From NCBI GenBank assembly GCA_011109175.1, contig RDEW01000001.1, positions 1,867,635 through 1,931,634 of the forward strand: 64,000 bases of DNA, given 5' to 3'. This DNA comes from Dicyema japonicum (lineage: Eukaryota; Dicyemida; Rhombozoa; Dicyemidae). The number at the start of each line of letters is the position of its first letter. Position 1 is the stretch's first letter. The notes below the pieces were generated by a model that made no database searches, was not told where the DNA came from, and saw only the letters and a list, made by a program, of their open reading frames with translations. Shown here one piece after another: positions 33,135 through 35,975 of the stretch. A program made the translations under genes and the position numbers.

Positions 33135-33148
33135 GAATCACTCAGGAA
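33135..33148. repeat. left target-site duplication of the LINE/18S composite insertion
   Basis: GAATCACTCAGGAA, identical to 35962-35975. Confidence 0.85.
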
Positions 33149-35212
33149 CAACAACAACAACAACGATTTATTGACAAAAGAGTTAAGGAGATTTCTGGAG
33201 GGTATTACATCTGAGTCTATTATAAGGCTTGGACTCCACACCTGACCCTTCATCCTCCTTTTTTTTATTATTAATCTTTTTTCGGAACGTTTCTCCCAGC
33301 TTTTTAATCTTTATTCTCCAGCTTTATGTATGTGTCCTGGACCTTTGATCTCCTCCTGAAACCATTGATTCGATCCTCCACAATCTTGCTAATCTGTTCC
33401 AGGAGCTTGTTTTCGTCCTCGTTTAGACTGTCTTTCAGTTTCATTTTTAAGGAGAGCTTAATTGCAGCTCTTCTAGTCTTCTCTAGGAGGGATAAAATCT
33501 TCTCCCTCTTCAGAGAGAAGAACCACCCCTCGCACCCATAAAGTAGGCTAGCGAGAATAACTTTCTTGAAGATGAACAGGTAGATGTCGCGGCTAACGTG
33601 TAACTTCCGTGTACATAGGAGCGACTGAAAGGCTCTTTTTCCCATCCCCTTTATGTCGTCCATGTAATCTCCTGCGTGTCCATAGTCGACCCCCAGGTAG
33701 CGCAGACTGTGTGAATTGTTTACTTTCAGTGTGTATTCTTGTTTCAGGTGCTTTTTCAAACTGCTTATTCGGAGTGCGCAAGATTTTTCAGCAAAGAGCT
33801 TTAGCCCTCTTAAGTTGCACCAATGCTCAATCTGGTCGACATCTCGGATTCTTCCTTCGGATATAGAAGATTTTAGAGATGTGTCCACCACGATTACGTC
33901 ATCCGCATAAATAAGAAGACTAGTATTAATATTCCTCGGACGTGGAAAACTCGCCATAAATATATTAAACAAAATAGGGCTCAATACTGAACCTTGAGGT
34001 ACTCCTCTTTTGAATGATATTGCATCAGATATATATCCACACACCTTCACAAAAGATTGTCTTTCCTGAAGATAATTTCTTAGCCAAACAAATAGGTATC
34101 TTAACACATGCTGATACAAGCTGCTTTAACAACGCTTCATGGCATACACTGTCGAATGCTTTCGAGATATCAAGACATAATAAGTTTATTTGTCTCTTGG
34201 AATCCTTTGCTTTCATGATTTCAGAATTTAGTAGAAAGAAACAGTCTGCGCAGCCTCTTCCGGGACGAAAACCCCACTGCTTCGGAATCAGAAAGTCATT
34301 TTCTTCTATATGTCTGCTTAGCCTTTTGAAAATGATACGTTCAATCACTTTCGCGAAAGAACATATTAAGCTAATTGGTCTGTAGCTTGCCGGATCTCTC
34401 TTTGGCTTCCCTTGTTTTGAAATCATCCTCACAACAGCTTTCTTCCATATTAAAGGCAAGTGGCCAAGTTGCAAACACCCATCATAAAGACATCGCAGAT
34501 AGTCAAACAAAATATCCGGACCCTCTTTGATAAGTTTCATTAATATGTGGTCATATCCTGGAGCATTGACCTTGCATTCCCTGATAGCTGTCATCACTTC
34601 AAAGATGCTGACTGCCATCATCAGCAATAGGTAGTGCTATCAGCAATACGTCGTCGGAGTGTTCAAATATATCGGCAGACACCTTCTTTTTGTCATCAGG
34701 GATCAAACTCCACGGATCCACACCCTGAATTTTTTGGAGCTGATCCTTGAATATCGAAGGTGTTTCCTCCGTTATGCATACTCCCCCGTCTGGTTTATCC
34801 AGTATAATTTTTTCTGCACCCGACTTCGGACACATTATCTTCTGATAACATTTCCAAAAAGAGGGATTCTTCATATCAATTTTTGCAGCCTCAGCCCTCC
34901 ATATACGGTCAGTCTCCTCCTTCCATATATTGCTGATTGCTTCCTTCATCATCCTGATTCTGGCTGATATGAATTCCCCGTCTATTTTGTCAGCACAACG
35001 TCTTTGCTTTGCCCTTAGGCGATTCCTCTCCCGAATAAGCCTCATAATAATTGGCGACACAAAATAATGATTTTTTTGAGAAAACCCTTCGTGAATACAG
35101 ATGAAGATATGACTGCAGTAGATTTGTTAATTCTCTACTTGCAGCATTGATACCTTCTATGGTTGAAAACTCTCTCGGTAGAACACATAAATTATTGGAT
35201 ATGAAGACCCTA
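33149..35212 (-). pseudogene. Family G LINE, RT-bearing, 5'-truncated
   Basis: Minus strand, N to C: linker STIEGINAASRELTNLLQ (35170-35120), IIMRLIRERNRLRAKQRR, WKCYQKIMCPKSGAEK, KVNAPGYDHILMKLIKEG (34580), KRDPASYRPISLICSFAKVI (34400), FRPGRGCADCFFLL and LCLDISKAFDSVCHE (34175). Then RGVPQGSVLSPILFNIFMAS (34000), LLIYADDVIVVDTS (33920), RYLGVDYGHAGDYMDDIK and a basic end at 33304. About 100 bp of 3' UTR leads to TTGTTGTTGTTGTT. Only a few frame changes (about 35060, 34620, 34070). RT motifs are all intact; nuclease missing. Distinct from families A-D by sequence and tail. Confidence 0.85.
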
Positions 35213-35699
35213 TAGTGGGCCCGGAGAGGGAGCATGAGAAATGGCTGCCAGATCTATGGATTGCAGCAGGTGCGAAAATTATCCACTTTTGGCATAAAGA
35301 GATAGTGATGATAAATAACGGATCTGGGCATTTGTTCAGAGATCGTAATGCTTTAATGAAGGCAATTGGAGGGCAAGTCTGGTGCCAGCAGCTGCGGCAA
35401 TTCCAGTTCCAATAGTGTATACTAAAGTTGCTGCAGTTGAAAAGCTCGTAGTTGGATCTCGGTTTGCTTGTGTGTAATACATGCAAGTAGGCCATTGCTG
35501 TAGTTAGTCTATGGCTTTACCTTGAACAAAATAGAGTGCTTAAAGCAAGCATTCTGCTTGAATATCTCAGCATGGAATAATAGAAAAAGACTTTTCTATT
35601 GGTTAACAGTAGCAAAGTAATGATTAACAGAGACAGACGGGGGCATTCGTATTGCACCGCTAGAGGTGAAATTCGTAGACCGGTGCAGGACGAACTACA

Positions 35700-35748
<49 letters not shown>

Positions 35749-35889
35749 AGTATCGAAGTCGATTAGATCTCGTCGTAGTTCCAACTATCAACGATGCCAA
35801 CTAGTACCCCGCTAATAAGTATTTGTACATTAGCGGGTTGCTTCCGGGAAACCAAAGTCTTTGGGCTCCGGGGGAAGTATGGTTGCAAA

Positions 35890-35938
<49 letters not shown>

Positions 35939-35960
35939 GCAGCTCAATTTGACTCAACAC
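35213..35960 (+). rRNA. 18S rRNA fragment (non-functional, about 750 nt)
   Basis: Contiguous small-subunit rRNA from CCGGAGAGGGAGCATGAGAA through GGAGGGCAAGTCTGGTGCCA, AGCTCGTAGTTGGATCTCGG, TAGAGGTGAAATTCGTAGAC, GGGCTCCGGGGGAAGTATGG and GGAATTGACGGAAGGGCACC to TTTGACTCAACAC, where it stops. This is roughly the middle third of an animal-type 18S (about nt 370-1155 of a typical 1.8-kb gene). Both ends are abrupt. Some universally conserved sites are altered, for instance GCAGCTGCGGCAATTCCAGT where the 530 loop normally has CCGCGGTAATTCCAGC, so it may also be an old copy. No 5.8S/28S nearby. Confidence 0.9.
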
Positions 35961-35961
35961 A

Positions 35962-35975
35962 GAATCACTCAGGAA
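35962..35975. repeat. right target-site duplication of the LINE/18S composite insertion
   Basis: GAATCACTCAGGAA, identical to 33135-33148. Confidence 0.85.

Follow-up and report, generated by a model that had tools for sequence, protein, structure and literature searches.

A LINE and an inverted 18S rRNA piece within one target site duplication in Dicyema japonicum: a probable case of twin priming onto ribosomal RNA

In the 64,000-nt stretch of Dicyema japonicum DNA analyzed in this study (hereafter, the window), two retrotranscribed pieces of opposite sense, a LINE and a fragment of 18S rRNA, are enclosed by a single 14-bp duplication; the tail of the LINE abuts one copy of the duplication, and the 3'-truncated end of the 18S piece abuts the other. 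This composite very probably arose in a single event, through twin priming in which 18S rRNA served as the second template. The preliminary description of this DNA had proposed such an origin, and we favor it because the site is empty in a paralogue, both junctions lie on the duplication, 8 of 10 bases at the target end agree with 18S, and a second composite of the same kind, L008, is present in the genome. The view that the composite is a natural instance of an already known reaction, met in a new setting, is well supported.

The duplication, GAATCACTCAGGAA, is present in exactly two copies in the window, at 33135-33148 (left) and 35962-35975 (right), and no third copy was found in the 64 kb on either strand with up to 2 mismatches allowed. 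Shuffled windows searched at the same tolerance contained 0.84 matches on average, and 18 of 100 shuffles reached two; the pair by itself is thus weak evidence, and its weight comes from where the copies sit. Next to the left copy lies the 3' tail of the LINE (33149-33164), which reads (GTT)n on the minus strand and was assigned from its sequence and from family relatives. The LINE body, also on the minus strand, occupies 33165-35222; comparison with the genome's own copies shows that it is 5'-truncated, with relatives such as L040 and L044 extending upstream at the point where the window switches to 18S. The Pfam profile RVT_1 is matched in two different minus-strand frames, one of which (33307-34125) carries the 3' part of the reverse transcriptase (profile positions 111-203 of 205) and the other of which (34028-34636) carries the 5' part (positions 2-93 of 205).

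The 18S piece, which is antiparallel to the LINE, occupies 35221-35964 on the plus strand; it is internal and 3'-truncated, measures 744 bases, and was identified with Rfam (RF01960, plus strand, E 6e-95 and 2e-14) and with the 18S copies of the genome itself. Its outer boundary is visible in copies L002 and L004, which continue AAACTCACCC where the window turns into TCACTCAGGAA. Own-genome copies place a 2-bp overlap, CC (35221-35222), at the join between the LINE and 18S, and at the opposite end the alignment and the target-18S match mark three bases, GAA (35962-35964), as common to 18S and the target, the putative start of priming on 18S. An exact search of the window thus confirmed the 14-bp repeat of the preliminary description, and the two RVT_1 frames together with the genomic relatives bore out its minus-strand LINE with a tail touching the left repeat; the plus-strand 18S that it placed at 35213-35960 is real, but the bounds are corrected here to 35221-35964. 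It had also held that 18S homology continuing beyond 35960 would mean that the rRNA piece was there first. The homology does continue, by 3 bases (GAA) into the duplication, but these bases are also present in the empty paralogue; we therefore read the overlap as microhomology and not as older rDNA.

Genome searches covered 191 contigs totalling 64.7 Mb. Matches to the LINE 3' end number at least 41, that of the window included (40 of 244 candidates were scored), and many of these relatives end in the same type of tail. Neither tail nor cut site has the L1 form: the tail is (GTT)n and not poly(A), and the primed strand ends in ...CTCAGGAA and not in a TT/AAAA-type site. When compared with the PDB, the 5' reverse transcriptase frame matched R2 chains (E 2e-11) and human L1 ORF2p (E 1e-8), and the 3' frame had no match. 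A protein search with the LINE returned 64 reverse transcriptases with uninformative names, and NCBIfam gave weak matches only. Duplications around the relatives are clear in few cases, namely L031, L035, L061 and the single copy represented by both L036 and L047; for many truncated copies, no flanking duplication was found. Classical inversion, in which the element's own RNA is the second template, was seen at none of the LINE 5' ends among L009-L068, a set of 60 identifiers of which many are the same copy, mostly read with 1.5 kb of flank and in a manner that would miss segments that are shorter than 40 bases or that lie upstream of the reference; the sole opposite-strand LINE segment (in L025) lies ~800 bases beyond the 3' end. 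Separately, three LINE copies at C148:434731-445232 (L021, L026 and L032) share the same cut base at a spacing of ~5 kb, which points to tandem duplication of a larger unit.

The preliminary description had named an empty site as a check, and an uninserted paralogue, with both pieces absent, is present on the same contig. Among the 8 genome matches to the right flank is this paralogue, L077 (C1:476735-477208, 84%). When the two window flanks were joined around one 14-mer and compared with it, a single site-crossing alignment was obtained (85% identity, 7% gaps), which extends leftward of the 14-mer for 49 bases and rightward for 1 kb, and in which the nearest leftward gap is 13 bases in length and 9 bases from the site. 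L077 holds the 14-mer once, with nothing inserted, and within its 3.5 kb neither the LINE reference nor 18S has a match. The pieces between the two copies of the duplication thus arrived at a site having the 14-mer once; L077 represents the pre-insertion site lacking both pieces, as a paralogue at 85% and not as an allele, and this, together with the short left arm of the alignment and its gap, counts against our reading. The site is also borne by two short repeats, L078 and L079, for which the alignment reaches only 3-6 bases leftward; L078 deviates from the 14-mer.

At the point where the 18S homology stops, the target sequence GAATCACTCA and the 18S sequence GAAAAACTCA match at 8 of 10 bases. 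An equally good match to this 18S 10-mer is found for 153 of the 127,980 10-mers of the window (0.12%). Scanning the 18S of L002 with the target, 2 of 1323 positions match that well, the junction position among them; in the 18S of L006, the sequence of which differs at the junction, 1 of 1636 positions does so, and it is located elsewhere. By these counts, the target end is complementary to 18S where copying would start.

A second locus, L008 (C181:803347-806742, read on the minus strand), repeats the plan of the window as far as its sequence can be interpreted: a tailed retroelement points one way, 18S points the other way, and one duplication encloses them. The order is target ending in ...CTTTTGTAATG; a retroelement, X; 6 filler bases; 18S from TAGCTGGTTGATCC to ...AAAAAGACTTTT; and GTAATGTGGTG. 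X comprises ~970 bases in the minus sense, its (GTTTC)n tail lying against the target, and the 18S is in the plus sense. The X family has at least 58 matches in the genome (40 of 220 candidates were scored). Three X copies, chosen because their start coincides with that of X in L008, were compared, and upstream of this common start they are dissimilar save for two 9-base matches at E 0.5; we therefore take the start to be the natural 5' end and X to be complete there. The 18S piece begins with TAGCTGG, at the base where the spacer ends in L002, L003 and L006, a position that we take to be the mature 5' end of 18S. That both cDNAs at L008 would have reached 5' ends speaks for RNA templates.

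The duplication at L008 is the 11-bp CTTTTGTAATG, of which the first 5 bases are common to 18S. This follows from L091-L094, relatives of the target repeat (10 places were listed), because the site is unbroken in all 4 that were fetched. A 29-bp duplication was rejected, as the same four relatives show that the 29-bp units belong to an older repeat; L088-L090, the relatives obtained under the 29-bp assumption, aligned only right of the site. The target and 18S match at 8 of 10 bases at this locus as well, a level reached by 197 of 127,982 10-mers by chance. The combined chance of both matches is 2e-6, a value that assumes independent cases and uses a 10-base span chosen after the window case had been seen. 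Right of L008 another repeat begins, the one tested frame of which is unnamed by Pfam; zinc-knuckle and endonuclease frames in this region were not borne out by Pfam (one frame tested).

On the reading that we favor, the LINE ribonucleoprotein would nick the plus strand of the target after ...CTCAGGAA and copy the LINE RNA from its (GUU)n tail, producing ~2.07 kb of plus-strand cDNA, and a second nick, staggered by 14 bases, would follow. The minus-strand 3' end would then anneal to 18S rRNA and not to the LINE RNA, with GAATCACTCA lying on GAAAAACTCA (8/10), and ~740 nt of 18S would be copied toward its 5' side. Finally, joining of both cDNA ends would take place across 2 bases (CC), and repair would leave the 14-bp duplication. 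We infer the order of these steps, the use of one enzyme for both RNAs, and the identity of the window template as rRNA and not rDNA.

Break repair is able to capture filler DNA, and the 18S piece in the window lacks a natural RNA end; both points agree with a different course, in which the LINE inserted by itself and 18S was pasted in as DNA, either an rDNA fragment or free cDNA, during repair of the break. We consider this very unlikely. Priming predicts a target match such as the 8/10 agreement seen at the 3' end of the 18S piece at two loci, and the 18S of L008 opens with TAGCTGG, lacking the upstream spacer.

The genome search with 18S returned 28 matches, the window's own included. Those that we read are L001-L008, L069-L075 and L095-L097; five on C62, one on C36, C53:142314 and C123:403790 were left out. 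L073 (C124:10000-11400) contains an older 18S piece, at 80% identity, in the same sense as a LINE to which it is fused; the LINE part corresponds to ~100 bases at the 3' terminus of the window's family, is 86% identical to L040 and carries the tail, and no clear duplication was seen. This is the polarity given by template switching. The opposite orientation of 18S and LINE in the window is wrong for simple switching of that kind. A switch in which first-strand synthesis moved from the LINE RNA onto an antisense transcript of 18S could cite L073 as a fusion onto 18S with switching polarity, but it requires rRNA transcribed in antisense and would lead one to expect neither a match between target and 18S at the far end nor the 5' end of sense 18S at the L008 junction; we find it barely credible as the origin of the composite and retain twin priming onto 18S rRNA.

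Among the remaining 18S matches, L070 and L071 have no adjoining LINE of the window's family and no clear duplication in the stretch fetched. At C169:113000-117400 (L074 with L081/L082), 18S is present in two parts with the middle missing, followed closely by a same-sense fragment of reverse transcriptase (RVT_1 at E 7e-6, which is below the Pfam cut-off); this locus is either a further chimera or 18S that an element has entered. In L069 (C123:398300-400500), 18S is interrupted by ~410 bases, and 10 18S bases are present on both sides, a split that resembles an insertion with a short duplication. L095 (C125) and L096 (C175) are 18S pieces of ~80% identity that end near the same 18S base and are similar beyond it; judged by eye, they look like a duplicated or mobile 18S-derived repeat.

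The private substitutions of the two pieces count against a single event, because one event predicts equal ageing, and their inequality is only partly explained. The LINE in the window carries 38 private substitutions at 2037 sites in comparison with 34 locus identifiers (some of them the same copy), and 42 at 1803 sites in comparison with 18 copies. Set against L002, its closest copy, the 18S piece shows 4 substitutions and a deletion of 15 bp; its substitutions number 5 relative to L003 and 11 relative to L004. Its private count is 5, or 3 when two changes in the 2 bases left of the homology are dropped, and a fourth is common to a minority of copies. Such changes are denser in the LINE (38/2037 versus 4/~743, Fisher p 0.008). 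Within the LINE, they crowd in the 3' part, with 22 in 496 sites at 33220-33720 versus 20 in 1486 in the first 1500 bases, and six of those 20 are located at 34613-34636, where they flank an alignment gap. The 18 sampled relatives are 5-9% divergent in the LINE 3' third, and L040, the nearest of them, agrees with the window copy at 98-99% over the first two thirds. It is possible that an unsampled source subfamily explains the uneven LINE changes, the split into parts having been made after seeing the data. Codon positions show no third-position excess (13 of 33 private changes), and selection on an active source is thus not visible. On the sense strand at 33220-35188, 43 private LINE substitutions include 16 G to A and 9 C to T.

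The smaller number of private changes in 18S, together with the existence of other 18S scraps in the genome, would suit an origin in two events, in which the LINE was inserted next to an old fragment of rDNA or its 5' end later acquired the 18S. However, a copy of the duplication would then be expected at the LINE 5' end near 35222, and none was found; moreover, the empty paralogue is also without 18S, the 18S end coincides with the duplication, and L008 follows the same plan. To our minds, two events have only a slight chance of being the explanation, and we maintain that twin priming with 18S rRNA as the second template very probably produced the composite.

Inverted chimeras of U1, U2, U5 and U6 snRNAs have been explained by twin priming by Doucet et al. 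2015 (PMC4476161), by whose account 7 of 30 snRNA-retrotransposon copies could have arisen in this way. As described there, these chimeras resemble the composite in the window in their opposite sense, 3'-truncated RNA, 5'-truncated element, single duplication and RNA-target complementarity. They belong to mammals, to L1 or SVA and L1's own cut site, and to snRNA pieces, whereas a 744 nt 18S rRNA piece, a (GTT)n-tailed LINE and another genome are involved here. Law and Burns 2026 (PMC13174262) described antisense 5S rRNA and tRNA chimeras of human LINE-1, for which twin priming was suggested; according to that account, 7-17 bp duplications accompany 20 of 27 5S cases, and the RNA 5' end is commonly at the LINE junction with truncation at the 3' end, likewise here. 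The main text of that paper contains no occurrence of 18S, and the 28S pieces that it gives are mostly same-sense (83%). The same reaction scheme and junction microhomology are found in Kojima 2010 (PMC2912911), where, unlike here, both cDNAs come from one LINE RNA. Tailless rRNA retropseudogenes (Schmitz et al., cited in PMC2912911) are, as presented there, likewise 3'-truncated and duplication-flanked, but have no LINE joined.

The capture that the preliminary description had called rarely documented is accordingly already in print for U1/U2/U5/U6 (PMC4476161) and for 5S rRNA and tRNA (PMC13174262), as far as these accounts describe it. In the open-licence literature, we found no publication on 18S in an inverted twin-priming chimera. 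Twin priming onto another RNA is known; the novelty lies in 18S as the captured RNA, in a LINE lacking poly(A), and in a non-mammalian genome.

No own-RNA inversion was found at a 5' end in L009-L068, versus two 18S composites from the 28 matches, and these counts are behind the idea that bystander RNA, chiefly 18S rRNA, is often taken up by the second target end of this species in place of the element's own RNA; we regard this as doubtful. Were that idea true, twin priming would be a general route by which long rRNA pieces, up to the mature 5' end, enter animal genomes with non-L1-type LINEs. On our reading of the composites, a reaction described for mammalian L1 in the papers we consulted would extend to another genome, another LINE tail type and a large rRNA, with two loci that display both pre-insertion sites and target-RNA pairing. 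A caution also follows, in that 18S scraps on contigs are not necessarily rDNA or contamination. Such composites may reveal, from genomes alone, the RNAs that were near the target at second-strand priming.
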